A DNA stretch of 41,577 bases from Gammaproteobacteria bacterium (GTDB lineage: Bacteria > Pseudomonadota > Gammaproteobacteria > UBA6429 > Thiohalophilaceae). A program made the position numbers and the translations under genes. Below the pieces are notes generated by a model, which was given only the letters and a program-made list of their open reading frames with translations, was not told the origin of the DNA and did not search any database. Where the stretch lies: NCBI GenBank assembly GCA_026196045.1, contig JAPHRJ010000015.1, positions 1 to 41,577 of the forward strand, written 5' to 3'. This document shows, piece by piece, positions 16,245-33,939 of this stretch. Numbering within the stretch: the stretch's first letter is position 1; each line of letters starts with the position of its first letter.

Positions 16245-16273
16245 TTGATCGTATATACGTTTAAACGTATATT
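16245..16273 (+). promoter_or_regulatory. ars promoter with embedded ArsR operator palindrome
   Basis: TTGATC at 16245-16250 and TATATT at 16268-16273 are 17 bases apart and form a good sigma-70 promoter. A perfect 20-bp palindrome, arms ATATACGTTT and AAACGTATAT at 16253-16272, fills the spacer and runs into the -10 box. This is where an ArsR dimer would block RNA polymerase. Initiation about 7 bases after the -10 box would fall at the ATG of arsR (16281). Confidence 0.75.
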
Positions 16274-16280
16274 ATCTTCC

Positions 16281-16634
16281 ATGAATATACCAATCAGCCA
16301 GTTTTTTCAGCTTTTATCTGATGATACGCGTCTCCGTAGCCTGCTATTAATACAGCAGGAAGGTGAGCTGTGTGTCTGCGAACTCATCCATGCTCTGAAT
16401 ATCATCCAGCCCAAGGTATCTCGCCATCTTGCTGCACTGCGTGATGCGGGGATCGTAGTCGATCGACGCCAGGGTCAGTGGATATATTACCGTCTCCATC
16501 CCGAATTACCCGATTGGGCATCACAGGTGATTGATACCATGGTTGCCGAAGCGGTGACCCATGAACCCTTCATCCATGATCTCTCGGCACTCGCCGAGAT
16601 GCCGAACCGACCCGATGCCGCCTGCTGCGCCTGA
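16281..16634 (+). CDS. arsR: Arsenic-responsive repressor ArsR
   Basis: A 117-residue winged-helix repressor of the ArsR/SmtB family. The metal-sensing CVC pair lies in GELCVCELIHAL, on the DNA-recognition helix as in classic type 1 ArsR, where As(III) binding releases DNA. The recognition helix continues with QPKVSRHLAALRDAGIV, and the wing is RRQGQWIYYRL. A terminal CC could also bind metal. I start at the ATG 16281 because the frame upstream, from a TTG at 16245, would translate the promoter palindrome. No ribosome binding site precedes the ATG, so the mRNA is probably leaderless. arsC and the ACR3 gene follow on the same strand. Confidence 0.92.
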   Translation: MNIPISQFFQLLSDDTRLRSLLLIQQEGELCVCELIHALNIIQPKVSRHLAALRDAGIVVDRRQGQWIYYRLHPELPDWASQVIDTMVAEAVTHEPFIHDLSALAEMPNRPDAACCA

Positions 16635-16658
16635 AACTATCGTCAAAGGAATCTCCAC

Positions 16659-17087
16659 ATGAATATCTTATTTTTGTGCACCGGTAATTCCTGCCGTTCA
16701 CAAATTGCCGAAGGCTGGGCCAGAAAGTATGGCAGCCCCACCCATGAAATTCAGTCTGCCGGAATTGAAAGCCATGGCAAGAACCCTCGAGCCATTGCAG
16801 TAATGAAGGAAGCCGGAGTGGATATTTCTTCTCAGGAATCCACCAAACTGACGGATGAGATGCTAAGCGCAGCTGATTATCTGGTCACAGTTTGTGGCCA
16901 TGCTGATGAACATTGCCCGGTATTACCAGAAGGGATACGCAAAGAGCACTGGCCATTAAGTGATCCTGCCAAAGCGACAGGAACAGAAGATGAAATTATG
17001 GCTGTGTTTAAAGCAAGTCGTGATGATATTCAGCAACGCGTAAAGGATTTGATTGAACGTTTAACACTAGAAGAGAATGCGAAGTAG
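16659..17087 (+). CDS. arsC: Arsenate reductase ArsC, thioredoxin-coupled type
   Basis: A 142-residue enzyme of the low-molecular-weight phosphatase-fold ArsC class, which reduces arsenate to arsenite with electrons from thioredoxin. The P-loop CTGNSCRS gives Cys7 and Arg13, and the redox pair Cys79 and Cys86 lies in TVCGHADEHCPV. The aspartate of the WPLSDPA loop is present. All three catalytic cysteines needed for the disulfide cascade are therefore intact. It stands 24 bases after arsR with an AAGGAATC ribosome binding site. The product, arsenite, is exported by the pump encoded next. Confidence 0.95.
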   Translation: MNILFLCTGNSCRSQIAEGWARKYGSPTHEIQSAGIESHGKNPRAIAVMKEAGVDISSQESTKLTDEMLSAADYLVTVCGHADEHCPVLPEGIRKEHWPLSDPAKATGTEDEIMAVFKASRDDIQQRVKDLIERLTLEENAK

Positions 17088-17091
17088 AGAT

Positions 17092-18186
17092 ATGAGCAGT
17101 AAGAGATCAAGTAGTGACATGGGGATATTCGAGCGTTACCTCAGTGTATGGGTTGCGCTGTGCATTGTTGCAGGTATTGGGTTAGGCCACCTGTTACCAG
17201 ATCTTTTTCAGGTAGTGGGGCGTATCGAAGTCGCTCACATTAACCTCCCGGTAGCCGTACTGGTATGGCTAATGATTATTCCCATGCTACTCAAGATTGA
17301 TCTAAAAGCATTGAAAGGAGTTAAACAATACTGGCGTGGTGTTGGTGTTACTTTATTTATTAACTGGGGCATCAAGCCTTTTTCCATGGCTTTACTTGGA
17401 TGGCTCTTCATTGATTATCTGTTTCGAGACTATCTTCCAGCGGATCAGATTGACTCCTATATTGCAGGCCTGATCATACTGGCTGCTGCACCGTGCACGG
17501 CAATGGTCTTCGTCTGGAGTCATCTAATGCGTGGTGAACCTCACTTTACATTATCACAGGTCGCATTAAATGATGTGATCATGGTGTTTGCTTTCGCGCC
17601 CATCGTTGGATTATTACTAGGTCTTTCTGCCATTGTAGTACCCTGGGATACGCTATTCTTATCGGTATTACTCTATATTGTTGTACCACTGATAATCGCA
17701 AGCCTGTGGCGGCGAAAATTACTCAATCAAAAGAATGGTGTTGCAAGGCTGGAAAAAGTAATCAAACGTTTGCACCCATTTTCACTAAGTGCATTGCTCG
17801 TTACCTTAATATTACTCTTTGGTTTTCAGGGAAAGCAGATTATTGATGCACCTCTTATTATTGTTTTACTTGCTGTACCGATTTTGATCCAGGTCTTATT
17901 TAATTCAGGACTTGCATACATACTCAATCGCCAGGTTCGTTCACCTCATTGTGTAGCGGGTCCTTCGGCATTGATTGGAGCGAGCAATTTCTTCGAACTG
18001 GCTGTAGCGACAGCAATCGCAATGTTTGGTTTTGAATCAGGAGCGGCATTAGCTACCGTGGTTGGGGTTTTGATCGAAGTTCCGGTTATGTTGCTTGCAG
18101 TACGTGTGGTCAATCAGTCACAGGGATGGTACGAACGTCGTGATGGGGTTGTGCCTCACGAACAATGTTGTCCGACTCCTCGGTAA
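17092..18186 (+). CDS. arsB: Arsenite efflux permease, ACR3 family
   Basis: A 364-residue inner-membrane protein with about ten hydrophobic segments, of the ACR3 (bile acid/arsenite symporter) family. The key Cys135 in AAAPCTAMVFVWS and the glutamate in GVLIEVPVMLLAV match the residues known to matter in Acr3 pumps. Acr3 extrudes arsenite using the proton gradient. The gene starts 4 bases after the arsC stop; an upstream in-frame ATG at 17077 overlaps arsC, but 17092 is preceded by AGTAGAG. The C-terminus ends HEQCCPTPR, an extra cysteine pair. The symbol arsB is used loosely; the protein is ACR3, not the unrelated ArsB type. Confidence 0.92.
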   Translation: MSSKRSSSDMGIFERYLSVWVALCIVAGIGLGHLLPDLFQVVGRIEVAHINLPVAVLVWLMIIPMLLKIDLKALKGVKQYWRGVGVTLFINWGIKPFSMALLGWLFIDYLFRDYLPADQIDSYIAGLIILAAAPCTAMVFVWSHLMRGEPHFTLSQVALNDVIMVFAFAPIVGLLLGLSAIVVPWDTLFLSVLLYIVVPLIIASLWRRKLLNQKNGVARLEKVIKRLHPFSLSALLVTLILLFGFQGKQIIDAPLIIVLLAVPILIQVLFNSGLAYILNRQVRSPHCVAGPSALIGASNFFELAVATAIAMFGFESGAALATVVGVLIEVPVMLLAVRVVNQSQGWYERRDGVVPHEQCCPTPR

Positions 18187-18246: not shown

Positions 18247-18915
18247 CTAAGGGTTCCCACCCTCGGTGGGTAAGCCTGATGTTATCCATTCCGGATAGCC
18301 ATCTTCTAAGCGTCGCGCTTTCATTCCTTGCTCACGTAATTTGGCCACGGCGTCAAATGCCAGTACACAATGTGGTCCTCGACAATAGGCCACAATTTCA
18401 TGTTCCGGATCAAACTGATCCAGGTGTTTTTCTAATTCTGCCAGAGGAATGTTAATGGCACCGGGGACATGACCCGCGTCATATTCTTCTTTTGGTCGAA
18501 CATCCAGCACAGTAACCAGTCCTTTCTGTGCGCGATCCAGCAATTCGGTACGCTGCAGTGGTTCCAGGTTATCCTTGGTTGTTAGATAGGTTTGCACCAG
18601 GCGATCAACATCGGCTATGTGGCTTTCTGCTACATTTCTGAGTGAGTTAAGCAACTCGATAACGTCAGTTCCATTCAATGCGTAATAAACTTTTAAGCCT
18701 TCTTTTCGAGCGCTGACCATCCCGACCTGGCGTAATTGCTGTAGATGTTGTGAGGTATTAGCAACGGTCAATCCAGAGACTTTGGCAAGGGCTTCGACAC
18801 TGCGTTCACCCTGGGCTAAAAACTCCAGTAATTCCAGACGGTTAGCATTGCTTAAGGCCTTGCCTACACGGGCAAACTGGGTAAAAAGTTCATGCTTGAA
18901 GTTGCCGCTTGACAT
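18247..18915 (-). CDS. ArsR-family repressor fused to a rhodanese domain
   Basis: Residues 10-100 form an ArsR-type winged helix: LSNANRLELLEFLAQGERSVEALA, then the recognition helix in VANTSQHLQQLRQVGMVSARKEG. Residues 125-215 form a rhodanese domain with LDVRPKEEYDAGHVPGAINIPL and the active loop YCRGPHCV (Cys178, Cys183). Rhodaneses carry sulfane sulfur as a cysteine persulfide, so the fusion could sense sulfane sulfur or act as a redox switch; this is inference. The repressor part lacks the CVC metal site of arsR. It is divergent from the hydroxylase gene at 19028, with a 24-bp inverted repeat in between. Confidence 0.9.
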   Translation of the reverse strand: MSSGNFKHELFTQFARVGKALSNANRLELLEFLAQGERSVEALAKVSGLTVANTSQHLQQLRQVGMVSARKEGLKVYYALNGTDVIELLNSLRNVAESHIADVDRLVQTYLTTKDNLEPLQRTELLDRAQKGLVTVLDVRPKEEYDAGHVPGAINIPLAELEKHLDQFDPEHEIVAYCRGPHCVLAFDAVAKLREQGMKARRLEDGYPEWITSGLPTEGGNP

Positions 18916-18937
18916 TGAGACTCAATCCTCTACTCTT

Positions 18938-18961
18938 GTATTCAAGAGAACTATTGAATAC
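18938..18961. promoter_or_regulatory. Operator-like inverted repeat between divergent genes
   Basis: GTATTCAA and TTGAATAC form perfect 8-bp arms with 8 bases between them, 23 bases upstream of the ArsR-rhodanese start. The arm-to-arm spacing fits a winged-helix dimer on one face of the helix. TATACT at 18967-18972 could be the -10 box of the rightward promoter. It probably serves autoregulation and control of the hydroxylase operon. Confidence 0.6.
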
Positions 18962-19027
18962 TTGTGTATACTAACTAATTGTAGCAGTTGTCAGCTAAAG
19001 GACAAATTAAAGGGGCAAAGAAGCAGC

Positions 19028-19888
19028 ATGAACTTAACAGAAACCATTATGGACAACGAGGTCAATATTCGGTTGGGCTTCTTTTTTGGAGTCTTTGCGC
19101 TTATGGCTATCTGGGAGGTGCTTGCACCGCGCCGAGCCTTGACCGTGAGTAAAGCAATACGCTGGACAAATAACCTGGGCTTAGTATTTTTAAATAGTTT
19201 TATTTTGCGATTACTGTTTCCTGCGGCGGCTGTGGGTGTCGCGGCCTTTGCCCAGAAAGAGGGATGGGGGCTGCTCAACTTTTATGACGTCCCGTTTATT
19301 CTCGCTGTCATCGTATCCGTCATAGCGATGGATTTTATTATCTACCTGCAACATGTCATGGTTCATGCAGTACCGACTTTATGGCGTTTGCATCGGGTTC
19401 ATCATGCGGATCTGGATTACGATGTCACGACAGGGGCACGTTTCCACACGATTGAAATTATCCTGTCTATGTTGATCAAGTTTGCCACCATCGTGGTGCT
19501 TGGACCTCCTGTTGTTGCGGTTGTGATATTTGAAGTCGTGCTTAATGCCACGGCCATGTTTAATCATAGCAACGTACGACTTCCTCCTGGCCTTGATCGT
19601 TGGTTACGTTTACTGGTTGTAACGCCTGATATGCATCGTGTTCATCATTCGATTGAAGATGATGAAACCAACAGCAATTTTGGTTTTAGTTTACCGTGGT
19701 GGGATCGCATATTTGGAACCTATCGTGAGCAGCCTCGTGCTGGACATGAAGGCATGACCATTGGTATTTATAAATACCGAACGACTAAAGAAGTATCCTG
19801 GTTACCAGGAATGTTATGGCTTCCATTTCGTGGAAAGATCAGTCATTACACCATTAATCGCCGACAATGGAATGATGAAGATGAATAA
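19028..19888 (+). CDS. Sterol desaturase / fatty acid hydroxylase superfamily membrane protein
   Basis: A 286-residue integral membrane protein with the histidine clusters that bind the di-iron centre of this superfamily: LQHVMVH, WRLHRVHH, then FNHSN and HRVHHS. Four hydrophobic stretches surround them. Members hydroxylate or desaturate lipids with O2; the substrate here is unknown. The frame is open upstream into the ArsR-rhodanese gene on the other strand, but the ATG 19028 is the first sensible start after the promoter region, with an AAAGGGG element 14 bases before it. It overlaps the next gene by a few bases, so the two form an operon. Confidence 0.85.
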   Translation: MNLTETIMDNEVNIRLGFFFGVFALMAIWEVLAPRRALTVSKAIRWTNNLGLVFLNSFILRLLFPAAAVGVAAFAQKEGWGLLNFYDVPFILAVIVSVIAMDFIIYLQHVMVHAVPTLWRLHRVHHADLDYDVTTGARFHTIEIILSMLIKFATIVVLGPPVVAVVIFEVVLNATAMFNHSNVRLPPGLDRWLRLLVVTPDMHRVHHSIEDDETNSNFGFSLPWWDRIFGTYREQPRAGHEGMTIGIYKYRTTKEVSWLPGMLWLPFRGKISHYTINRRQWNDEDE

Positions 19889-20843
19889 AATATGGTTAAG
19901 ACTAATACTGCTGGTCATTGTGGTTGCCGGTATTGGTGTGGCCATGATGTATCGAGATCACTTAAACCCAGAGGCCCTGCAACAGTGGGTTGATCAGTAT
20001 GGAGCAATGGGGCCGGTTGTATTTATGCTGATCTACACTATTGCTACCATTTTTTTTCTACCTGGTTCGGTAGTCACCCTGGCCGGGGGCGCAATGTTTG
20101 GTCCTGTATGGGGAACATTATTCAATCTGACTGGTGCAGGCATTGGTGCGACTTTAGCATTCCTGATTGCCCGTTATCTTGCAGGTGACTGGGTAGAACA
20201 AAAGAGTGCTGGTAAATTAAAACAGCTTAAACACGGAGTAGAGACAGAGGGCTGGCGTTTTGTGGCCTTTGTCCGTCTGGTTCCTTTGTTTCCATTCAAC
20301 CTGCTTAACTATGCTCTCGGGTTAACAAAAATACGACTCAGTCATTATGTTCTTGCCTCATACCTGTTCATGTTACCCGGTGCAATTGCCTATACCTATA
20401 TAGGCTATGTTGGTCGTGAAGCGATCGCAGGCGGCGAAGGCTTGATCCAGAAAGGACTGCTCGCACTTGCCTTATTAGCTGTCGTCGCATTCATACCGCG
20501 ATTCATAGGCAAGTTAAGAAGTAAGCCCATGCTCAATACACCAGACTTAAAACAAAAGCTGGATGCTGGTGATGATGTGTTGCTACTGGATGTACGTACT
20601 GCAACAGACTTTGTTGGCGAGAAGGGTCACATTGCCGAGGCGAACAATATTCCTCTGGAAGAACTTCAAAGTCGAAATGATGAAATATCGAATTATCTTG
20701 AACGTCCAGTTGCCATTATCTGTACAACTGATCGGCGTTCAAAAAAAGCAGCACAGGTATTAACAACTCATGGTTTTGCCGATGTTCATGTAGTGAAAGG
20801 TGGTATGACGGACTGGAATCAGAATGGTTATCCGGTTGAATAA
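19881..20843 (+). CDS. VTT/DedA-family membrane protein fused to a rhodanese domain
   Basis: A 320-residue protein. The N-terminal part (about 1-210) is a SNARE-associated/VTT domain: a first helix, then LPGSVVTLAGGAMFGPVWGT, RYLAGDWVE, and the typical VRLVPLFPFNLLNYALGLT segment. The family is implicated in lipid scrambling and TVP38-like functions. Residues about 215-320 form a rhodanese domain with LLLDVRTATDF and the active-site loop ICTTDRRS, whose cysteine is present. Start choice is uncertain: ATGs at 19872, 19875 and 19881 are all possible; 19881 gives a clean N-terminal helix and overlaps the upstream stop. Two rhodanese fusions in one small locus suggest persulfide chemistry. Confidence 0.85.
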   Translation: MNKIWLRLILLVIVVAGIGVAMMYRDHLNPEALQQWVDQYGAMGPVVFMLIYTIATIFFLPGSVVTLAGGAMFGPVWGTLFNLTGAGIGATLAFLIARYLAGDWVEQKSAGKLKQLKHGVETEGWRFVAFVRLVPLFPFNLLNYALGLTKIRLSHYVLASYLFMLPGAIAYTYIGYVGREAIAGGEGLIQKGLLALALLAVVAFIPRFIGKLRSKPMLNTPDLKQKLDAGDDVLLLDVRTATDFVGEKGHIAEANNIPLEELQSRNDEISNYLERPVAIICTTDRRSKKAAQVLTTHGFADVHVVKGGMTDWNQNGYPVE

Positions 20844-20910: not shown

Positions 20911-21834
20911 ATGAAAATAATTATTTCAATGTTACTACTGGCATGGCCTATATATACTTTTGCTGAAGAGCCACTTGTCCCACTGAAGATCAGCAAAATA
21001 ACAGCGAATATCTATGCTCTGGTTGGAGAACTGGATCAGCGTTCACCAGCAAACCTGGGTAATAATGCTACCTTCGGGGTTATAGTGACTCAAGCAGGTG
21101 TTGTGCTCATTGATTCAGGTGGCTCCTATAAAGGTGCAGAACAGATTGCCAGCGCAATAAAAAGTATCACCGATAAACCCGTCATAACCGTAATTAATAC
21201 TGGTGGACAGGATCAGCGTTGGTTAGGTAATGGATACTTCAGGAAAAAAGGTGCAAAAATCATCACCTCCAGTGCCGCTTTAAAAGATCAACGTAGACGA
21301 TTTAACAGCCAGATAGAGACACTGGATCGTTTAATAGGTTCTAAGAATCTGGAAGGCACCCAGGCCGTCTATGCCGATCAGACCTTTGACTCACAACTTG
21401 ATATAACAATCGGAACTGTACACTTTAACATCCAGAATCCTGCCCCAGCGCATACGCCTGGAGACAGTTTTGTGTGGTTGCCTGAATACAATGTGATGTT
21501 TACGGGTGACATTGTCTATGTTTCTCGGATGTTAACGATAGGTTCAATGTCAAACAGCAGTAACTGGATCAAGGCCTTTGAAACCCTGTCTGCTTATAAA
21601 CCAACATATATCATACCCGGTCACGGTGATGTTACTGATCTTAAACAGGCAACCACTGACACGTATGATTATTTGACCTTTTTACACTCGACAGTAAAAG
21701 ATTTTATCGATCAAGGTAAAGGTCTTGAATCAATTAGTGATATTGATCAAACACGTTTTTCATATTTGAAGTTTTATGAACAAATTGCTGCCCGAAATGC
21801 ACATCAGGTTTTTCTGGAACTGGAATGGCAATAA
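20911..21834 (+). CDS. Exported metallo-beta-lactamase-fold protein with degenerate metal site
   Basis: A 307-residue protein with a signal peptide (cut near residue 18, ...YTFA-EEP). The MBL fold is clear from GVVLIDSGGSYKG, AHTPGDSFVWLPEYNVMFTGDIVY and YIIPGHGDV. His181, Asp200 and His238 of the later motifs remain. The first motif, normally T-H-x-H-x-D-H, reads N96-T-G-G-Q-D-Q102, so none of its metal ligands is present. It resembles exported MBL proteins of the SoxH kind, whose roles are poorly known. It cannot be a standard two-zinc hydrolase. It is followed after 42 bases by the iron-sulfur fusion gene, with a GAAGGA ribosome binding site for its own ATG. Confidence 0.85.
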   Translation: MKIIISMLLLAWPIYTFAEEPLVPLKISKITANIYALVGELDQRSPANLGNNATFGVIVTQAGVVLIDSGGSYKGAEQIASAIKSITDKPVITVINTGGQDQRWLGNGYFRKKGAKIITSSAALKDQRRRFNSQIETLDRLIGSKNLEGTQAVYADQTFDSQLDITIGTVHFNIQNPAPAHTPGDSFVWLPEYNVMFTGDIVYVSRMLTIGSMSNSSNWIKAFETLSAYKPTYIIPGHGDVTDLKQATTDTYDYLTFLHSTVKDFIDQGKGLESISDIDQTRFSYLKFYEQIAARNAHQVFLELEWQ

Positions 21835-21876
21835 TCAGTCGCAGGCTGGATCATATAAAGTAGTACGGTGGTAACC

Positions 21877-24294
21877 ATGACTAATGTCAGTAGCATACAA
21901 ATTACTCATACACCTCGAACTGTATCGGCATTGCAACAGGATTCGATGCCCTCCCGTTACAGTTTGTGGGTGCAATGGCTTAGCATGGCGGCATTTACTT
22001 TGGCCTTTGTAGGCTGGTTAAATGAAACCTGGTTATTCTGGTTTGACAATCCCATCTGGTTAAATCGTTACACTGAATATGCAATCATTCTCGGTTTTGG
22101 TATCTGGCGTATTAGTGCTGAACGCAATAGCTATACCCGTAAGCGACTTATCGTCCTGGTTGCAGTCATTACTGGCTTCTGGTGGCTCATTCCATGGGTA
22201 ACACCAACTTATGAACCTTATGTAGGTTACCTCTGGAGCCAACCAGTATTTCCCTCGCTACATGTACCGGGAACGATCACCTTCTTTCTTGTATTAGGTC
22301 TGGTTTTTCTTTTTGGACGGCGAGTAATTTGTGGCTGGGGCTGCCCCTGTGTTGGTATTCGAGAGACGGTAGGTTTTAGCTTTCGTGATCGTACAGTTCG
22401 ATCAAAATGGGCCTGGCGTTTACGCCATTCCAAATGGTTCTTTTTTATCTATTATGTCGGCGTGATGATCGTCACGCAGTATCCACCTAATAGCTGGACG
22501 GTGAGTTTTGTTGGTGGATTCTATTTAATTGTCGCTTTGACTTATTTCGGAACGTTCTTTGCCGCCCCTTTAGTTGGCAATCGTTTTTATTGTCGTTACT
22601 TATGTCCCTATGGTGCAACCTTTGGCCTGCTTAACCATGCAGGTTATTACGGCATCGATATGGAAAAGGAAAAATGCAATGATTGCCGTCGTTGTGAACA
22701 GGTATGTGATATGGGGATCCCGGTCTGGGAGCAGGGCAAGCAGCATGGCCGTATAACGGCACTGGAAGATTGTATGGGATGCGGTCGTTGTGTTGTTTCC
22801 TGTCCGACAGATGCCCTGGAGTTTCAGGATGTACGTAACCTGTTCAGGCCGAATTTAAAACAGAACGCCAGTCATTTGCTGAAGAAAAAGAAAACTGATA
22901 TCGCTGCTCGTATTGAACCAACGAGACGTTTACCTAATGAACGTCAGAAAGACTGGCAGGAAATTGTCATTGAACCTTCAATGGAAGAAATCCAGTTACA
23001 GGCCGCTCGTTGTATTGATTGTGGTATTCCGGGTTGCAGCAATGCCTGCCCACTTTCTAATCGTATACCGGAATGGCTGGAAGCTGTGGCCAATGGTCAG
23101 ATTGAACAGGCCGCCAGTATTTCTCATACCACTAGTAATATGCCTGAGGTCTGTGGTCGTCTCTGTCCACAACATAGACTCTGCGAAGGTGAGTGTACAA
23201 AAGAAAAAGAAGGTAAAGGTGCAGTAACGATTGGTGCTATTGAACGTTATATTACAGATGAAGCATTCAGACGTGGTTGGCAACCCGATCAACCTTGTGT
23301 TCAACCTAACGGTAAAAAAGTCGCCATTGTTGGCGCTGGCCCGGCGGGTCTGGCCTGTGCGGAACAACTTAACCGTTCTGGTTTTAAAGTGACGGTTATT
23401 GATCGTGAAGGCGTAGTAGGGGGCTTACTGGCCACAGGTGTCCCCAACTTTAAATTAGATAAAACTATTCTTCAGCATCGTCAGCAGTTATTACAGCAGG
23501 CAGGCATTGAGTTTAAGTTAAATGTTGATGTGGATGAGACTGAACTAAGAGGCCTGTTAGAAAATAATGATGCACTTTTTCTTGGTATGGGTGCACAGAC
23601 ATCACGCCAGATGCAATTGCCTGGACAACAACTTGAAGGTGTTAGTGATGCTCTGGACTATCTGGCAACGGTTAATAAATCAACTAATGATAATATGGCC
23701 GATAAATCGGTAGTCGTCATTGGTGGTGGCGACAGCGCAATGGACTGTGCACGCTCCGCAATTCGTCAGCAAGCCAGGTCAGTAACGGTCATCTATCGTG
23801 GTAAAGAAAGTACAATGCGGGCTTCTCCCAAGGAACAACAGTATGCCAGAGAAGAAGGTGTTGAGTTTATATTTGATTATATTGCTGAAGAGATCATCGG
23901 CGAAGCTGTAGTAAGTGGTGTTAATCTAAGAAATAGCGAAGGCTCAACTAAAACAATTGACTGTGACAACATTATTTTTGCGATAGGCCAGTTAGCAGAT
24001 GCGCCATCCTGGATGAAGAATCTGGGTGTTGAAACTAAGGATGGTTTAATTAAGATTAATACACAGGGACGAAGCACTCATCCACAGGTATATGCCGGTG
24101 GTGATAATACTCATGGCCCTGCACTAGCTGTTGATGCGATTGCAGCCGGGAGACTGGCAGCTACATCGATTGCTAATAGTTTCAAGCCACTACAGCAAGT
24201 TCGAGACAGTCTATCTAACCTCAGACATAAATCAGATGCAGTGCAGCCACTTCGACCTGTAGCCGCAATGGTGAATCAGAAAGAGTGCCCATGA
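21877..24294 (+). CDS. NapH-like membrane ferredoxin fused to GltD-like NAD(P)H:FAD oxidoreductase
   Basis: An 805-residue protein in two halves. Residues 30-320 are NapH/CcoG-like: four or five membrane helices, cytoplasmic cysteine motifs CGWGCPC (152-158) and CRYLCP (239-244), then two ferredoxin motifs CNDCRRCEQVC (267-277) and CMGCGRCVVSCP (299-310). Residues 370-770 resemble the glutamate synthase small subunit: CIDCGIPGCSNACP (379-391), CGRLCPQHRLCEGEC (426-440), FAD site VAIVGAGPAGLACAEQL and NAD(P)H site VVVIGGGDSAMDCARSA. No glutamine amidotransferase or glutamate synthase large subunit is nearby. The plain reading is electron transfer between NAD(P)H and the membrane. The start is the ATG after GGTGG; a GTG lies three codons earlier. 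Confidence 0.88.
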   Translation: MTNVSSIQITHTPRTVSALQQDSMPSRYSLWVQWLSMAAFTLAFVGWLNETWLFWFDNPIWLNRYTEYAIILGFGIWRISAERNSYTRKRLIVLVAVITGFWWLIPWVTPTYEPYVGYLWSQPVFPSLHVPGTITFFLVLGLVFLFGRRVICGWGCPCVGIRETVGFSFRDRTVRSKWAWRLRHSKWFFFIYYVGVMIVTQYPPNSWTVSFVGGFYLIVALTYFGTFFAAPLVGNRFYCRYLCPYGATFGLLNHAGYYGIDMEKEKCNDCRRCEQVCDMGIPVWEQGKQHGRITALEDCMGCGRCVVSCPTDALEFQDVRNLFRPNLKQNASHLLKKKKTDIAARIEPTRRLPNERQKDWQEIVIEPSMEEIQLQAARCIDCGIPGCSNACPLSNRIPEWLEAVANGQIEQAASISHTTSNMPEVCGRLCPQHRLCEGECTKEKEGKGAVTIGAIERYITDEAFRRGWQPDQPCVQPNGKKVAIVGAGPAGLACAEQLNRSGFKVTVIDREGVVGGLLATGVPNFKLDKTILQHRQQLLQQAGIEFKLNVDVDETELRGLLENNDALFLGMGAQTSRQMQLPGQQLEGVSDALDYLATVNKSTNDNMADKSVVVIGGGDSAMDCARSAIRQQARSVTVIYRGKESTMRASPKEQQYAREEGVEFIFDYIAEEIIGEAVVSGVNLRNSEGSTKTIDCDNIIFAIGQLADAPSWMKNLGVETKDGLIKINTQGRSTHPQVYAGGDNTHGPALAVDAIAAGRLAATSIANSFKPLQQVRDSLSNLRHKSDAVQPLRPVAAMVNQKECP

Positions 24295-25085
24295 TGAAAT
24301 GGGTAACATTCATTGTGTTCATTTTCTGGAGTCCATTAAATTGGGCCAGTCACAGTTTTGGTGGCATTGATCTCTGTGCGCTTTATCCTGAACGCATGCC
24401 GCCAGGATTACCCGTATCACAGCTACCTCTGCCAGACAGCCAGGGGGCACAATTAACACAGGAATATTGTACCCAGTGTCATAACCTTCCTGGTCCTGGT
24501 CGTCATACCGTAGCGGAATGGCCTGATGTGATGGAACGAATGAATATGTTAATGGACATATCGAGTCGTTTTGGAGGGCTGCTTGGGAAACTGAAGACAC
24601 CGAGCAATGAAGAAAAAATTATTATCGAGACTTATTTGTTAGCAAATGCCCTTAAACCTTTCATTGGACAGCCAGATAAAATATCAGGACGAAGCTTCGG
24701 ACAACATTGTAGCAACTGTCATGCCTTACCCGATCCGGCACAACACAGTGAGCAGGAATGGCCACAGGTGATTAAACGTATGCAGCACAATATGAGTGTA
24801 ATGAAATATGAACCGATTTCAGCAGAAGTACTGTTACAGATCCAGCGTTACCTGCAACTAAATAGTAATGTTATTCAACAGGAACATATTGTTAAAAGTG
24901 GCCGTCAGGAATTTAGGTCGTATGTGATAGAAGAAAATTCTTACCATGGATTTAGTCATCTTGGTTCGTGGTTCGCATTGGGGCCATTTTTTCTATTGGC
25001 GCTGGCGGGTGTGATTCGCTGGTGGAGCACGCAGAAAAAATATAAGACGCTGACAGAACGCACCATAACAACAGGTAACCGATAA
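24291..25085 (+). CDS. Membrane-anchored dihaem cytochrome c
   Basis: A 264-residue protein with a signal peptide (about 1-20), two haem c sites, CTQCH (60-64) and CSNCH (140-144), and one transmembrane helix near residues 224-245 (LGSWFALGPFFLLALAGVIRW). The two haem modules are related to each other: each is followed by L-P, then E-W-P-x-V-x-x-R-M. The protein is therefore a periplasmic dihaem domain held to the membrane by its C-terminus, fit to receive electrons from a membrane partner. The ATG overlaps the stop of the fusion gene as ATGA (24291-24294), indicating tight coupling. The exact family is not recognised. Confidence 0.87.
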   Translation: MMKWVTFIVFIFWSPLNWASHSFGGIDLCALYPERMPPGLPVSQLPLPDSQGAQLTQEYCTQCHNLPGPGRHTVAEWPDVMERMNMLMDISSRFGGLLGKLKTPSNEEKIIIETYLLANALKPFIGQPDKISGRSFGQHCSNCHALPDPAQHSEQEWPQVIKRMQHNMSVMKYEPISAEVLLQIQRYLQLNSNVIQQEHIVKSGRQEFRSYVIEENSYHGFSHLGSWFALGPFFLLALAGVIRWWSTQKKYKTLTERTITTGNR

Positions 25086-25096
25086 GGTATTATTGT

Positions 25097-26455
25097 ATGG
25101 GAACCCGTTATGTCTATATTCCTTTATTGATCCTGCTGATTCTCATCCCGGCAGGGAGGTATTATGTATCCTGGAGTAAAAGTGGGTCAGGAGCTGGACT
25201 TTACTCTCACGAATGGCAACCGGAAGCCATTCAGGGTTACTGGCATCCTAAAGCGTTTTATACATCAGTAAAGAGTATTGTTGGTGAATATACGGGTGAA
25301 GAGTGTGTATCATGTCATGAAGCGGTGACTCCGGGCATTGTTAGTGACTGGCGTCAAAGTGGTCATTCGCAGCCAGCAAATAATCAGGGCAAGGTTTATT
25401 GCTCCAGTTGTCATGGCAATGATCATCAAAATTTACACCTGCCGACTCCCGAGATCTGTGGTGGTTGTCATACTAACCAACATGATCAGTTTCTTGATGA
25501 AAGACGGTTTGGTTTTCCCAGTCATGCCCTGGCGATGGAACGAGCCATTGACGCCAAACATTTTGTTGATAAACCCAAGTCAGAAGTCACCGCATGTCTA
25601 CAATGTCATTCGGTTGCTAGCAAGTGTGATTCCTGCCATACGCGCCATCGCTTTAGTGCGGCCGAGGCACGTCGACCTGAGGCCTGTATTACCTGTCACA
25701 GTGGTCCACCCCATCCTGATGATGCCACCTATTTTGCTTCAGCTCACGGTCAACGATACCTGAAAGACGGAGATAACTGGGACTGGTCAAAACCCTTAAG
25801 CAAGGGTAACTATGAAGTACCAACCTGTGCCTATTGCCATATGTCAGACGGCAAACATCAGGTTGCGGATAAGCCGATCTGGAAATTTGGTATCAAACAG
25901 GTCAACCCTTTAAGTTCGGGTAATGAAATCAAACGACAACAATGGATCGCATTGTGCAGCGATTGTCATGAGGCCGATTGGTCAGCGGATCGTCTTCGAG
26001 AAATGGATGCAGAGCGTAAACAGGCATGGGCTAAACTTTATGAAGCTGAAGCTATTCTCAAATCCTTACGCAGTGATTCATTGTTACATCCAGCCGCCGG
26101 TGAACGGCCACCTTATCCAAATGACTGGTTAGACAGCCTATTTCCACGTGAGCATATTGGCTTTCTGGAAGGGCAGGCTTCGGCTTTTTATAATGTCTCA
26201 CCGATTGAACGCGACTATTTTGAAATGTGGTATTTCGATAATCTGGGTGCCTATAAAGGAGCCGCACATGGTGCTAGTTCGTTTGTAGAAAAAGGACATG
26301 CAGGAATGGAGCAGGCATTATCCAAAATTAAAGCGGAAGCAAAAACGCTTAGAATGCTGGGTGAGTCCGAACAACGTAAAACAGGCAAGCGTAGTGCACC
26401 TGGAGAACATTGGCTTAAAGGCGAGTATACGGAATTCAATAAGGAGCACAACTGA
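25097..26455 (+). CDS. Octahaem cytochrome c, hydroxylamine oxidoreductase (HAO) family
   Basis: A 452-residue protein with an N-terminal membrane anchor or uncleaved signal (about 6-25) and eight CxxCH sites, first cysteines at 70, 102, 121, 167, 177, 197, 244 and 287. The NYEVPTCAYCHMSDGKHQV segment and the C-terminal helices with FEMWYFDNLGAYKGAAHGA fit the HAO family of octahaem cytochromes, which includes hydroxylamine oxidases and the nitrite/hydroxylamine-reducing epsilon-HAO branch. Whether the tyrosine that crosslinks the P460 haem is present cannot be settled by eye, so direction and substrate are open. It starts 11 bases after the dihaem gene and touches the pentahaem gene. Confidence 0.88.
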   Translation: MGTRYVYIPLLILLILIPAGRYYVSWSKSGSGAGLYSHEWQPEAIQGYWHPKAFYTSVKSIVGEYTGEECVSCHEAVTPGIVSDWRQSGHSQPANNQGKVYCSSCHGNDHQNLHLPTPEICGGCHTNQHDQFLDERRFGFPSHALAMERAIDAKHFVDKPKSEVTACLQCHSVASKCDSCHTRHRFSAAEARRPEACITCHSGPPHPDDATYFASAHGQRYLKDGDNWDWSKPLSKGNYEVPTCAYCHMSDGKHQVADKPIWKFGIKQVNPLSSGNEIKRQQWIALCSDCHEADWSADRLREMDAERKQAWAKLYEAEAILKSLRSDSLLHPAAGERPPYPNDWLDSLFPREHIGFLEGQASAFYNVSPIERDYFEMWYFDNLGAYKGAAHGASSFVEKGHAGMEQALSKIKAEAKTLRMLGESEQRKTGKRSAPGEHWLKGEYTEFNKEHN

Positions 26456-27333
26456 TGCTGAACTCTATTGAGCACCACCTAATATCCAGTCTCCTGATAG
26501 CCAGTTGTTTAATGTTTAATATTGCAGCCTATGCCGAACAATCTCCAACTGGAGACTATGTAGAAGCAGAATGTATTACTTGCCATGAAAAAATAAGTGC
26601 AAAACTCGTTACAGACTGGAAAACAGATGTACATGGGCGAAACAAACCAGTAGCAGGGTGTACAGATTGTCATGGTACACAACATGAAAATGCAGCGATT
26701 CTATCGCGTCAGGATGAAACCTGTACTCAATGCCACGGTGGAACTCAAGCTTCAGTCGCACACAGCTATAGCACATCCAAACATGGCGTCATAAATCGTA
26801 TAGAAAGGAAACAGACAGATTGGTCTAAACCCTTTAGGCCGGGTAACTATCGAGTGCCGGGTTGTGCCTATTGTCACGCATCAGGTGGACAACACAATAT
26901 GGGTGAACGAATGAATCAAATTGAAGATGATAATGAGCATAGTGAACATAATGGGCAAGCCCGCCAGGCAATGCGTTGGATGTGCCAGCATTGCCATGGG
27001 CCAAGGTTTATTCGTGAGTTGCAAAACAATGGCCAGAAGATGCTAGAGATCGGTAATATGAAACGCCGTGAAGCAGAAGCCATCTTACAAACAGCGAAAA
27101 AAACATACACACCCGAACAGATGACTAAGATGACAAAACTATTCACGGCTTTGGTAGAAGAAAACGTAAAATCTTTATATTTGGGTATTGCACATCAGTC
27201 TCCAGATTATCAATGGTGGCATGGTCACCCAGCGATAGATGGTAAGTTGTTACGTATCAAAGGTGAGTTGACTCGTTTAAATAGATTGAAAGCGCATAAA
27301 AAAACTAAGGAAGTATCGTCAAGTTCTGAATGA
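26455..27333 (+). CDS. Pentahaem cytochrome c, shortened HAO-family paralogue
   Basis: A 292-residue exported protein with a signal peptide (about 1-28) and five CxxCH sites, first cysteines at 40, 69, 90, 137 and 177. It aligns with the octahaem protein just upstream: ECITCHEK against ECVSCHEA, and TDWSKPFRPGNYRVPGCAYCHASGGQH against the matching DWSKPLSKGNY segment. The block holding haems 4-6 of the octahaem protein is missing. The C-terminal helices, with SPDYQWWHGHPAIDGKL, are again HAO-like. The ATG overlaps the upstream stop by one base. The pair probably arose by duplication and may form a complex. No known enzyme with this haem set comes to mind. Confidence 0.85.
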   Translation: MLNSIEHHLISSLLIASCLMFNIAAYAEQSPTGDYVEAECITCHEKISAKLVTDWKTDVHGRNKPVAGCTDCHGTQHENAAILSRQDETCTQCHGGTQASVAHSYSTSKHGVINRIERKQTDWSKPFRPGNYRVPGCAYCHASGGQHNMGERMNQIEDDNEHSEHNGQARQAMRWMCQHCHGPRFIRELQNNGQKMLEIGNMKRREAEAILQTAKKTYTPEQMTKMTKLFTALVEENVKSLYLGIAHQSPDYQWWHGHPAIDGKLLRIKGELTRLNRLKAHKKTKEVSSSSE

Positions 27334-27538
27334 ATTTGCAGTTTTCGAATATCTTAAATACCAGACTAATTGTCTTGGTTAAAAAATTTGGTATGGATTA
27401 AATCCATTTGAAAGTTCCGATCACTTTTCAATTCAATCGTTGTTATTTATTTTTTTCATTTTTTTTCCTATAACTAATATATAAGTGCTGGAGATCATAC
27501 ACGTTGTATTTTTTTAACAGAATAAAAAGGGGGTAGTG
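27334..27538. other. Leader region of the sulfur globule gene
   Basis: About 205 bases, very AT-rich, with long T-runs at 27450-27467. The length and AT-richness suggest that the next gene has its own promoter; TATAAC at 27470-27475 is a possible -10 box without a clear -35. An imperfect hairpin around 27363-27382 could end the cytochrome transcript. Neither is strong. Confidence 0.4.
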
Positions 27539-27916
27539 ATGAAAATCCGATTAAGTTTGTTAATTGCAGGACTGTTGTTGCTCTTTTCCGCATCCAGTCA
27601 GGCATGGTGGGGAAATAATGGCTGGGGCGGTTGGAATCCCTATCCAGTGTGGACACCCATGTACTGGGCAGAAGAAATGACGGGTGATAACTATGGCCCT
27701 TATGGCGGCTATCCTGGTTACGGTTATGGTGGTTATCCCGGTTATGGATATGGAGGCTATCCGGGCTACGGTTATGGTGGTTATCCCGGTGGTTATGGAG
27801 GAGGCTATCCTGGCTACGGCTATGGTGGTTATCCCGGTGGATATGGAGGAGGCTATCCTGGCAGTTATGGTGGTTATCCCGGAGGATGGGGTGGCCCCAG
27901 TGGCTGGGGTTGGTAA
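27539..27916 (+). CDS. Sulfur globule protein-like Gly/Tyr/Pro-rich exported protein
   Basis: A 125-residue protein with a signal peptide cut after ...SSQA (residue 22). The mature part begins WWGNNGWGGWNPY and has a PMYWAEEM segment resembling the conserved head of sulfur globule family proteins. It then carries eight tandem units of the type GGYPGYGY. Sulfur globule proteins coat periplasmic sulfur granules in purple and colourless sulfur bacteria. The composition (Gly, Tyr, Trp, Pro) and export fit that role. The start is the ATG 27539 after an AAAAGGGGG ribosome binding site; a GTG lies one codon earlier. A strong terminator follows, so it is likely an independent, highly expressed unit. 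Confidence 0.75.
   Translation: MKIRLSLLIAGLLLLFSASSQAWWGNNGWGGWNPYPVWTPMYWAEEMTGDNYGPYGGYPGYGYGGYPGYGYGGYPGYGYGGYPGGYGGGYPGYGYGGYPGGYGGGYPGSYGGYPGGWGGPSGWGW
27704..27892 (+). repeat. Tandem 24-bp coding repeats
   Basis: Eight in-frame units encode octads alternating between GGYPGYGY and GGYPGGYG, with one seven-residue unit near the end. The nucleotide copies differ at third positions, so the array is not very recent. Confidence 0.9.
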
Positions 27917-31308: not shown

Positions 31309-31369
31309 ATTTTCAGTTTCATTTCACACTCGCCAGGTACAGTTTACGCCATGGTTACGGGAGTAGGTG

Positions 31370-31939
31370 ATGAGCGACACAAATCAAATTAAGGTGTGGG
31401 ATCTTTCAGTGCGTATTTTTCACTGGTCTTTAGTGGGCGCATTTTTTATCGCTTATCTGACTGAAGATGACTGGCTGGATCTTCATGTTTTCGCTGGTTA
31501 TACGATAGCAGGTCTGATTGTTTACCGTCTATTATGGGGCCTGATTGGCACTCGCCATGCTCGCTTCAGCGATTTTATACATCCACCTCGTGTGGTGGTC
31601 ACGTATTTAAAAGATATGGCAACTTTCCATCCTCAACGTTATATCGGCCATAACCCTGCTGGTGGTGCCATGGTGGTGGCTTTGTTGCTGAGTCTGTTGT
31701 TAACGATTCTGACAGGACTGTCGGTTTATGGTGCTAAAGAGATGGCAGGACCGGTGGCTGCTCTTTTTGTTGGTACGCCGAATTTTATTGGCAATGTGGT
31801 TGAAGAGCTGCATGAGTTCTTTGCTAATTTCACACTGTTTCTGGTTGGTTTGCATGTGGCCGGTGTTGTCCTGGCTGGATTACAGCATAGAGAAAATCTG
31901 GTGCACTCGATGATCAATGGCAGGAAAAAGGCTGAATAG
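31370..31939 (+). CDS. Cytochrome b561-type membrane protein
   Basis: A 189-residue protein of the dihaem cytochrome b561 / Ni-Fe hydrogenase cytochrome b family. The start VWDLSVRIFHWSLVGAF carries His18, and further candidate haem ligands are His39 in LDLHVFAGY, the HEFFANF histidine and the GLHVAGVVL histidine. Four membrane helices are visible. Such proteins pass electrons between quinones and periplasmic cytochromes. The ATG 31370 follows GGGAGTAGG; a GTG one codon earlier is less likely. Downstream come a DUF1924 cytochrome and a DHC dihaem cytochrome, the grouping known for the SHP-DHC-cytochrome b modules. Confidence 0.9.
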   Translation: MSDTNQIKVWDLSVRIFHWSLVGAFFIAYLTEDDWLDLHVFAGYTIAGLIVYRLLWGLIGTRHARFSDFIHPPRVVVTYLKDMATFHPQRYIGHNPAGGAMVVALLLSLLLTILTGLSVYGAKEMAGPVAALFVGTPNFIGNVVEELHEFFANFTLFLVGLHVAGVVLAGLQHRENLVHSMINGRKKAE

Positions 31940-31975
31940 AATTTTATTTATTTGAAGAGAACAGAGGAATTAATT

Positions 31976-32386
31976 ATGAAAATACCTGTAACCATTATCA
32001 CTGCTTCGGTACTACTGTTTACACAGTCAGTCAGTGCCAGCCCAGCTGTTGATAACCTGTTAAAAGAGTACAGCAAAGCTGGCGCGGGGCCATTCAGTGC
32101 CGAAGCGGGTCAACGACACTGGACTAAAGCACAGAGCCATGACAAGTCACCGACGGAACGAAGTTGTAGCAGTTGTCATACCCGTGATCTGAACAATGCT
32201 GGTAAGCACGCTAAAACACAAAAGCCGATTAAACCAATGGCACCAGCAGCCAACTCAAGTAGATTGACCGATACAAAAAAGATCGAGAAGTGGTTTAAAC
32301 GTAACTGCAAATGGACACTTGGACGTGAGTGCACATCTCAGGAAAAAGGCGACTTTCTTCTTTATATACAAAAAACAGGAGTATAG
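31976..32386 (+). CDS. DUF1924 / SHP-like monohaem cytochrome c
   Basis: A 136-residue exported protein with a signal peptide cut near residue 21, one haem site CSSCH (64-68) and the DUF1924 pattern: a GPFSAEAGQRHW stretch before the haem, HAKTQKPIKPMAPAAN after it, then an RNCKWTLGRECTSQEKGDFL tail. The tail holds two extra cysteines (in RNCKW and RECTS) that could form a disulfide. The related SHP of Rhodobacter sphaeroides is a high-spin, oxygen-binding cytochrome whose gene neighbours DHC and cytochrome b genes, as here. The start follows AGAGGA; a TTG 24 bases earlier is rejected. Precise function is unknown. Confidence 0.85.
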   Translation: MKIPVTIITASVLLFTQSVSASPAVDNLLKEYSKAGAGPFSAEAGQRHWTKAQSHDKSPTERSCSSCHTRDLNNAGKHAKTQKPIKPMAPAANSSRLTDTKKIEKWFKRNCKWTLGRECTSQEKGDFLLYIQKTGV

Positions 32387-32965
32387 ATGATGAATATTTA
32401 TAGTAAATTACTGGCTGTCGTTACCGTTGCCACTTTTTCCAGTTTGTTGTTTTTACCAAGCGTTTATGGGAGTGATGACGATGGTCATAAATGGGGGCTC
32501 GGCTGGTTCAAGCAATCGAAGCTGGATGTTGCGCCGGTCAATAATCCGGTCTATCGTGAGGAATGTGGTAGTTGTCACTTTGCTTTTCAGCCAGGTTTGT
32601 TACCCGAAAAATCATGGCGTAAGATGATGGCAGGACTCGAAGATCACTTTGGAGATAACGCCGAACTTGATGCGGAAAAACAAAAGAGCTTACTCGATTA
32701 TCTGGTCACCAATTCTGCAGACAAGAGTGATTACAAACGTTCAACACGAATTGCCAGCTCGCTGAAACCGGGTGAAGTACCACTTCGCATCAGTGATACC
32801 GTATACTTCAAACGTAAGCATGATGAAATACCCATGCGCTTTGTTACTGATAATAAGGACGTGGGCAGTTACAGTAAATGTGAAGCCTGCCATACGCGTG
32901 CTGAAACCGGTTCCTATAACGAAGATGAGGTCAAAATTCCCGGTGTGGGTCGCTGGGAGGATTAG
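32387..32965 (+). CDS. Dihaem cytochrome c, DHC family
   Basis: A 192-residue protein with a signal peptide (about 1-28, ...SVYG-SDDDG), haem site CGSCH at 60-64 and a second, CEACH, at 165-169 near the C-terminus. The sequence after the first haem, FAFQPGLLPEKSWRKMMAGLEDHFGDNAELD in outline, is the hallmark of DHC proteins. DHC is thought to be the electron partner of SHP and of the cytochrome b in the same operon. It begins directly at the stop of the DUF1924 gene, which supports one transcript. Confidence 0.9.
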   Translation: MMNIYSKLLAVVTVATFSSLLFLPSVYGSDDDGHKWGLGWFKQSKLDVAPVNNPVYREECGSCHFAFQPGLLPEKSWRKMMAGLEDHFGDNAELDAEKQKSLLDYLVTNSADKSDYKRSTRIASSLKPGEVPLRISDTVYFKRKHDEIPMRFVTDNKDVGSYSKCEACHTRAETGSYNEDEVKIPGVGRWED

Positions 32966-32974
32966 AAAGCTGAA

Positions 32975-33271
32975 ATGAAATATTATCTGCAAACAGCGTT
33001 GCTCTTTATCATCATCAGCTCAAATGTCTGGGCTGATGATCATGAACGGGCTCGCGAGCTGGTCAAGCGTGGTGAAATCATTGCTCTTGAACAGTTGCTG
33101 CAACAGGTTATTAGCCAGCACGAAGGCAAACTTCGCTTGCTGGAAGCTGAACTGGAGCGCAAATCGGGACGTTTAGTGTATGAACTGGAACTGGTTGATG
33201 AACAGGGTGTGGTACGCGAACTGTATTTCGATGCAAAAACCGGTGTACCGCTCGACGAAGAGGACGATTGA
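32975..33271 (+). CDS. Exported PepSY-domain protein
   Basis: A 98-residue protein with a signal peptide (...[12 protein letters not shown]) and one PepSY domain: ALEQLLQQV, then [23 protein letters not shown] and [15 protein letters not shown]. Small periplasmic PepSY proteins often sit beside two-component systems and may modulate the sensor. Its last base overlaps the start of the response regulator gene. The ligand is unknown. Confidence 0.88.
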
Positions 33272-33939
33272 TGCGGCTGCTACTGGTAGAAGATGATCTT
33301 GTTCTTGGTCCCCGCTTGCGGCAGGATTTGCGCCGTGCCGGTTATGCAGTGGACCTGGTTGATAACGGTGTCGATGCTCAGTTTCAGGGTGAAGAAGAAG
33401 CTTACGATGCCGTCATTCTTGATCTGGGTTTGCCGGGGCGACCGGGACTGGAAGTGCTGCAGAACTGGCGCAAGGCAGGCAGTCAGCTACCGGTGATTGT
33501 TCTCACCGCGCGCGATGCCTGGCATGAACGCGTCGATGGCCTGAAAGCAGGTGCCGACGATTATCTGGGTAAACCTTTTCATCAGGAAGAATTACTTGCC
33601 CGCCTCGATGCTTTATTACGTCGGGCGCAGGAACGCAGTGAGCCGCAATTGGCCGTAGCCGGATTAATTCTTGATGAAGAACGCCAGTGTGTGATGCTGG
33701 CTGATGGTGAAACCGTCGAACTCACCGGCACCGAATTCCGCCTGCTGCGCTACATGATGATAAATCCCGGCAAACTGCTATCTAAATCCCGTCTTACCGA
33801 GCACGTTTATGAAGGTGATGCTGATCGTGACAGCAATGTGATTGAAGCTTATATCAAACGATTACGGCAGAAGATCGGGAAATCGCTGATCGAAACACGC
33901 CGTGGACAGGGGTATATTTTTGGTGGAGAAACAGCGTGA
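33271..33939 (+). CDS. OmpR-family response regulator
   Basis: A 222-residue regulator. The receiver domain has the acidic pair in VEDDLV (Asp8, Asp9), the phosphate acceptor Asp51 in VILDLGLPG, and the lysine of the YLGKPF loop. The C-terminal winged helix has [13 protein letters not shown] and [16 protein letters not shown] with the RRGQGYIF wing. It belongs to the QseB/PmrA-like branch by overall pattern. The ATG overlaps the PepSY stop by one base, and the kinase start overlaps its own stop, so PepSY, regulator and kinase are translated together. Likely targets include the cytochrome genes just upstream. Confidence 0.93.

Follow-up and report, generated by a model that had tools for sequence, protein, structure and literature searches.

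A conserved gene cassette of sulfur-oxidising proteobacteria encodes a candidate NAD(P)H-fed multihaem reductase with an active site probably divided between two chains

We analysed a 41,577-nucleotide stretch of gammaproteobacterial DNA (contig JAPHRJ010000015.1 of assembly GCA_026196045.1, family Thiohalophilaceae; hereafter, the window), in which five genes had been predicted from the sequence to connect NAD(P)H with multihaem cytochromes of the hydroxylamine oxidoreductase (HAO) family. Four of these five open reading frames (ORFs) belong to a conserved cassette, an arrangement that is far beyond chance because the block from a NapH–flavoprotein fusion to a pentahaem protein recurs in dozens of genomes. 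On balance, we consider it probable that this operon of sulfur-oxidising proteobacteria encodes a periplasmic multihaem reductase that is fed by NAD(P)H, has an active site split between an octahaem protein (OCC) and a pentahaem protein (PCC), and has a sulfur compound as the first choice of substrate.

The five ORFs are indeed present, co-directional on the plus strand, and closely spaced, with gaps of 33, −10, 11, and −1 nt (the first widens to 42 nt with the ATG at 21877 as the start of the fusion). Scans against Pfam and NCBIfam resolved them into an exported, SoxH-related MBL-fold protein (Lactamase_B; 20911..21834), a fusion of a NapH-like membrane ferredoxin with a GltD/AegA-like FAD/NAD(P)H module (NapH-type ferredoxin, Fer4_20, and Pyr_redox_2; 21868..24294), a dihaem cytochrome with a C-terminal membrane helix (DHC; 24285..25085), the OCC, which has an N-terminal membrane anchor (25097..26455), and the PCC (26455..27333), the last two both matching Multi-haem_cyto, the HAO family. 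The three cytochromes contain two, eight, and five CXXCH motifs, respectively. The source genome (2.7 Mb in 151 contigs, 93% complete) encodes dsrA, and no HAO-family genes besides the octahaem–pentahaem pair were found in it.

Scanning the fusion against 84,980 species genomes yielded 22 loci, labelled as uncultured Gammaproteobacteria, Thiobacillus, Sulfuritalea, and Thioploca, while an OCC profile run over 369 genomes of the class recovered 17 with the cassette, three of these on one closed contig. Gene tables were drawn up for 36 loci with the fusion (one duplicate was dropped), which come from numerous genera of the Gammaproteobacteria as GTDB defines them. Among the 32 loci that do not end at that point, the OCC gene adjoins the fusion in 31, and the PCC gene comes after it wherever the sequence continues. 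This synteny across genomes, together with the domains of the proteins, bears out the original prediction of a conserved gene set linking NAD(P)H, FAD, iron–sulfur clusters, the membrane, and HAO-family multihaem proteins. One locus on a closed contig from another family (L076:9501-11105, genome G070) has an OCC gene split over several frames alongside neighbours that remain open, which reflects either a pseudogene or a sequencing error.

The membership of the predicted five-gene unit required revision, in that four genes held up, the dihaem gene among them being optional, and the MBL gene did not. Present in only 4/36 loci, the MBL gene encodes a protein that has lost the HxHxDH metal motif in all four cases, where VINTGGQDQRWLGN or a variant stands instead (NTGGQDQRW in the window protein); we therefore rejected it as a core member and as part of the electron-transfer set, and regard it as accessory. 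The dihaem protein matches the Dihaem cytochrome family DHC (PF09626; 29.4 bits, cut-off 22.2) over its second haem. Its gene occurs in 14 loci and is replaced in 13 others by one for a small, haem-less protein with a membrane helix, the two never occurring together; the dihaem cytochrome is thus neither an obligatory relay nor the fixed step of the chain that had been proposed.

The fusion combines two CX3C motifs in its NapH-like membrane part with two ferredoxin-type cluster motifs, a GltD cluster domain, and motifs for FAD (GAGPAG) and NAD(P) (GGGDSA). Both Fer4_20 and Pyr_redox_2 exceed their Pfam cut-offs, as expected of a GltD/AegA-type module, and the nearest relatives of the flavoprotein half among plasmid records are of AegA type. 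As a whole, the protein falls below the NCBIfam cut-offs for napH (75.6 vs 213 bits) and gltD_gamma (435 vs 483 bits). From these domains, we infer that the GltD-like part would draw electrons from cytoplasmic NAD(P)H and that the 4Fe-4S clusters and NapH-like part would carry them across the membrane, from where they could reach the membrane-anchored OCC with or without the dihaem protein. The natural chain would then run from NAD(P)H through FAD, Fe-S clusters, the membrane, and in some loci the dihaem protein to OCC and PCC.

To place OCC and PCC within their family, we aligned both sets to family members drawn from other genomes and to PDB chains. OCC matches Multi-haem_cyto (PF13447) at 142 bits against a cut-off of 21.9, and its closest PDB chain is the anammox hydroxylamine oxidoreductase 4n4j (E 1e-71; 3e-86 with a profile), to which it aligns along its length with all eight haems, including haem 4. 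All eight CXXCH motifs and the catalytic haem 4 are present in 30/30 OCC sequences. Around this haem, however, the active site departs from that of the relatives. The pair Asp267-His268 (chain numbering of NeHAO) is Asp-His in every comparator, whereas the Asp is replaced by Pro in nearly all OCC sequences and the His is kept, so that the GVDH or GPDH of relatives reads GPPH in 29/30 and GTPH in the remaining one. The column of the cross-linking tyrosine (NeHAO Tyr467), occupied by Tyr in oxidative HAOs and by His, Trp, or Leu within a DYxxWxG-type motif in other relatives, is a gap in OCC and a Trp in PCC; no OCC (0/30) has a motif of this type. Likewise, the (H/W)-W-x-G pocket motif that marks the catalytic chain of reductive HAO-like enzymes is found in 0/30 OCC sequences and is instead present on PCC. 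In a quick tree, OCC formed a single clade with 100% support, separate from oxidative HAOs, likewise a group with 100% support, and from other reductive relatives. OCC also scores far below the NCBIfam cut-off for hydrazine dehydrogenase (200 vs 900 bits).

PCC is a reduced relative of the same family, matching PF13447 at 49 bits (cut-off 21.9), with 4n4j again the closest PDB chain (E 4e-25), and lacking the haem-4 region in the alignment. Its most conserved part is the pocket motif, which takes the form H(Q/H)SPDxQWW(H/Y/L)G in 30/30 sequences (HQSPDYQWWHG in the window) and whose WWHG falls on the WWWG of 6h5l in a profile alignment. PCC sequences formed one group with 100% support in the quick tree, although their branches are long and their place relative to OCC is tentative. 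Foldseek searches with AlphaFold models recovered the HAO fold for both proteins, with E-values down to 4e-15 for OCC and 2e-6 for PCC. Two betaproteobacterial loci (L039 and L040) encode a PCC with just three CXXCH motifs that nevertheless keeps the WW motif (HQSPDHQWWHG in L039), and at another (L023) the OCC and PCC genes are in frame; alignment of the combined chain placed the PCC rows on the OCC half.

The losses in the two proteins are complementary, OCC having kept haem 4 without the pocket motif and PCC the motif without haem 4, and this was missed when the pair was first recognised, correctly, as two HAO-family cytochromes at the end of the chain. By comparison, haem 4 and the motif lie on a single chain in all 16 full-length comparators and in the three PDB chains for which the C-terminus is available. 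In HAO trimers, the C-terminal pocket motif extends into the active site of the adjacent subunit. Haem 4 of each subunit is cross-linked to a Tyr from its neighbour, and family members without this Tyr are reductive (PMC12758564). Given that the losses are complementary, the genes adjacent, and the family pocket formed between subunits, a mixed OCC–PCC enzyme is the simplest reading; most likely, the two form one complex with a divided active site, which the pocket motif of PCC would complete in trans.

As judged from sequence and energetics, reduction is the most likely mode of action of this enzyme. The potential of NAD(P)H, about −320 mV, is lower than those of the couples of nitrite, sulfite, tetrathionate, sulfur, and arsenate. 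Electrons would accordingly be expected to flow outward unless a pump were added, and no pump was seen in the set; this low potential and the missing Tyr together indicate substrate reduction. The original prediction had left the direction open, and of its two options, flow from NAD(P)H to substrate is favoured. The opposite case, in which OCC and PCC would oxidise a periplasmic compound and the fusion would make NAD(P)H for carbon fixation by reverse electron flow, has an obvious rationale, as autotrophic sulfur oxidisers need reducing power and flavoproteins of this kind can run both ways. We give it little credence, considering that the P460-type Tyr is found in 0/30 OCC sequences, that a proton-pumping subunit is not in the set, and that the family's substrate couples lie at potentials far above that of NAD(P)+/NAD(P)H. 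Somewhat less improbable, although still doubtful, is that OCC and PCC have ceased to be enzymes and act as a conduit that passes electrons on, to acceptors outside the cell or in the periplasm, for example. That OCC has lost both Asp267 and the pocket motif would fit such a role, as would the location of OCC and, judging by its signal sequence, PCC outside the cytoplasm. A pure conduit, however, would need neither the invariant haem-4 CXXCH and active-site His of OCC nor the highly conserved pocket motif of PCC, and no porin or outer-membrane partner was recognised nearby.

What the reductase would act on is suggested mainly by its genomic surroundings, from which we rank sulfur compounds first, nitrogen compounds (nitrite, NO, or hydroxylamine) second, and arsenic third, with none proven and sulfur somewhat favoured. 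Sulfur is the first choice because the conserved neighbours are sulfur-handling and because the cassette goes with dsr genomes: in the class sample, dsrA was present in 16/17 cassette genomes vs 102/352 others (Fisher p 7e-8). The original gene set had overlooked these neighbours, as well as a recurrent arsenosugar cluster. They comprise an ArsR-type regulator fused to a rhodanese domain (18247..18915 in the window, minus strand, divergent), found within 9 kb of the fusion in 29/36 loci; a VTT (DedA/TVP38-type) membrane protein with a C-terminal rhodanese domain (19761..20843, plus strand), also in 29/36; and DsrE-type genes and TauE, each in about a third of the loci or more. Rhodaneses, DsrE, and TauE are all sulfur-handling families. 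Most members of the ArsR–rhodanese regulator have no Cys in their first 110 residues, the DNA-binding part, and nearly all have a CRGP(H/Y/F)C loop in the rhodanese part; a DNA-binding part mostly without Cys alongside a conserved CRGPHC loop suggests that the regulator senses sulfane sulfur rather than arsenite. ArsR regulators that respond to sulfane sulfur and control nearby sulfur genes are known (PMC12423496). Candidate substrates are sulfur compounds that arise or are encountered in sulfur oxidation, such as sulfite, thiosulfate, a polythionate, or polysulfide.

The same electron line and split enzyme could instead serve a nitrogen compound, as an NAD(P)H-driven reductase of nitrite, NO, or hydroxylamine for detoxification or ammonium formation. 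Family membership, on which alone the earlier suggestion of nitrogen compounds was based, speaks for this, as do the Kustc0457/Kustc0458 complex, a reductive relative with a second haem partner that its PDB title names a reducing HAO-like complex, and an octahaem relative from Beggiatoaceae that reduces nitrite (PMC6449678). Most cassette genomes also have cd1 (19/23) and NapA or NarG, the last above cut-off in 5/23. Yet neither cd1 (16/24 in cassette-free dsr genomes, p 0.32) nor NapA (15/23 vs 13/24, p 0.56) is richer than in sulfur oxidisers without the cassette, and one genome with the cassette (G119, 97% complete) has none of NapA, NarG, and cd1 above cut-off; having tested these three markers without finding enrichment, we ruled out a link to nitrate or nitrite respiration. 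None of the recurrent neighbours was recognised as a nitrogen gene, and the active-site Asp of nitrogen-active relatives is Pro in nearly all OCC sequences. We accordingly view a nitrogen substrate as unlikely, if worth keeping in mind. A slim chance remains for reduction of an arsenical or thioarsenical outside the cytoplasmic membrane, beside genes for arsenic methylation and arsenosugars. ArsS lies within ~7 kb of OCC in 8 of the 18 cassette genomes with ArsS, in at least five families, far above what random placement would produce (naive binomial 4e-14); ArsM, PyrRedox, and TIGR04282/TIGR04283 genes go with it, downstream in many loci; and the window has arsR-arsC-acr3 upstream. At least seven cassette genomes, the window's own included, nevertheless have ArsS elsewhere, ArsS is also common in cassette-free genomes, the ArsR part of the regulator lacks thiols in most members, sulfur-handling neighbours are commoner, and we know of no arsenic enzyme of the HAO family. 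The association of ArsS with the cassette is real and not universal, and could reflect shared stress genes.

Several observations weigh against an NAD(P)H-fed, split sulfur reductase. NapH is best known as a quinol-linked protein, and the fusion could touch the quinone pool. At one locus (L038:3553-7980), OCC and PCC are absent, and methyltransferase and ArsS genes come straight after the fusion. dsrA is missing from three cassette genomes, of which one is 95% and another 99% complete, common descent may explain part of its association with the cassette, and the arsenosugar genes downstream of the cassette in many loci count against a purely sulfur reading. The single-chain AlphaFold models are of low confidence (pLDDT 59 for OCC and 67 for PCC).

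Other genes around the window cassette include the arsR-arsC-acr3 operon (16245..18186, plus strand), with an arsC of thioredoxin type, which directly adjoins the ArsR–rhodanese gene, lies outside the cassette, and is one form of the recurrent arsenic neighbourhood. At nine loci (L021, L031, L035, L042, L074, L080, L081, L082, and L084), arsenosugar genes follow PCC, comprising ArsS and a variable complement of ArsM, methyltransferase, MerA-like flavoprotein, and TIGR04282/TIGR04283 genes that sometimes overlap. Between the regulator and the VTT–rhodanese gene, the window encodes a fatty-acid-hydroxylase/ornithine-lipid-hydroxylase-like protein (18782..19888, plus strand, with its true start downstream of 18782) that clusters with one at the same place in 15 loci. 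Downstream of PCC, a low-complexity, Gly/Tyr/Pro-rich exported protein (27536..27916) was first called a sulfur-globule protein, a label that is unverified; it has no family match in Pfam or NCBIfam and no relative beside other cassettes in the gene tables, and was for these reasons ruled out as a functional partner. Farther along (31367-35276), genes for cytochrome b561, DUF1924, and a full DHC stand side by side, with those for a response regulator and a sensor kinase after them; this dihaem set is separate from the cassette, though near it.

In genomes, HAO-family enzymes are taken as markers of the nitrogen cycle. The clade described here, found in several families of sulfur oxidisers, combines an altered active site with a partner that apparently supplies the missing part and with what would be its own electron supply from NAD(P)H. 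If our interpretation is true, octahaem matches in sulfur oxidisers could be taken as evidence of hydroxylamine oxidation or nitrite reduction only after the motif was checked; an NAD(P)H-to-periplasm reducing line would exist in organisms expected to spare NAD(P)H; and the natural split would make the role of the inter-subunit pocket of HAO testable. In keeping with the original prediction, we found no description of the fusion/OCC/PCC set in the open-access literature on the fusion, on HAO-like genes of sulfur oxidisers, or on the arsenic link, a negative that is limited to that literature and is not proof of novelty. That this is the first of its kind—an HAO-family enzyme with a two-chain active site, driven directly by NAD(P)H through a NapH–flavoprotein fusion, with a sulfur (or arsenic) compound instead of a nitrogen one as its substrate—is a possibility that we put forward tentatively.

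Among described relatives, the orange octahaem cytochrome of Guaymas Beggiatoaceae and the Kustc0457/Kustc0458 complex come closest. The former (BOGUAY_0691) and its SUP05 relatives resemble OCC in being HAO-like octahaem proteins of sulfur-oxidising Gammaproteobacteria, and nitrite reduction has been measured (PMC6449678); BOGUAY_0691 is ~512 residues long vs 452 for OCC. Several cassette genomes carry separate octahaem HAO-like genes of similar length on their own branch of the tree, and our guess is that these are orthologues of BOGUAY_0691. Kustc0457/Kustc0458 (6h5l) pairs an HAO-like protein that has no cross-link Tyr with another haem protein, which we take to be a dihaem protein; its HAO-like chain, however, holds haem 4 and the motif (WWWG) together, and the window dihaem gene, optional in the cassette, has no detectable sequence relation to the complex. 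More broadly, OCC and PCC align with the HAO family (NeHAO, anammox HOX 4n4j, and hydrazine dehydrogenase 6hif), and OCC shares its eight haems, but OCC lacks the cross-link Tyr and has Pro at the equivalent of Asp267, the C-terminal motif sits on another chain, and the system has a membrane module of its own that is linked to NAD(P)H. Octahaem enzymes acting on sulfur compounds in the periplasm include the sulfite reductase MccA (with MccBCD) and octahaem tetrathionate reductase, which are fed via membrane and Fe-S partners. These resemble OCC in haem number and location, although they did not turn up in our sequence searches, and MccC/MccD are quinol-linked, unlike the NAD(P)H-linked fusion. 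In NosR/NapH-type and MsrPQ-type lines, electrons pass from the cytoplasmic face through a membrane protein to a reductase in the periplasm; here, in contrast, the NapH-like part is fused to a flavoprotein that would oxidise NAD(P)H, and the line would feed an HAO-family enzyme.

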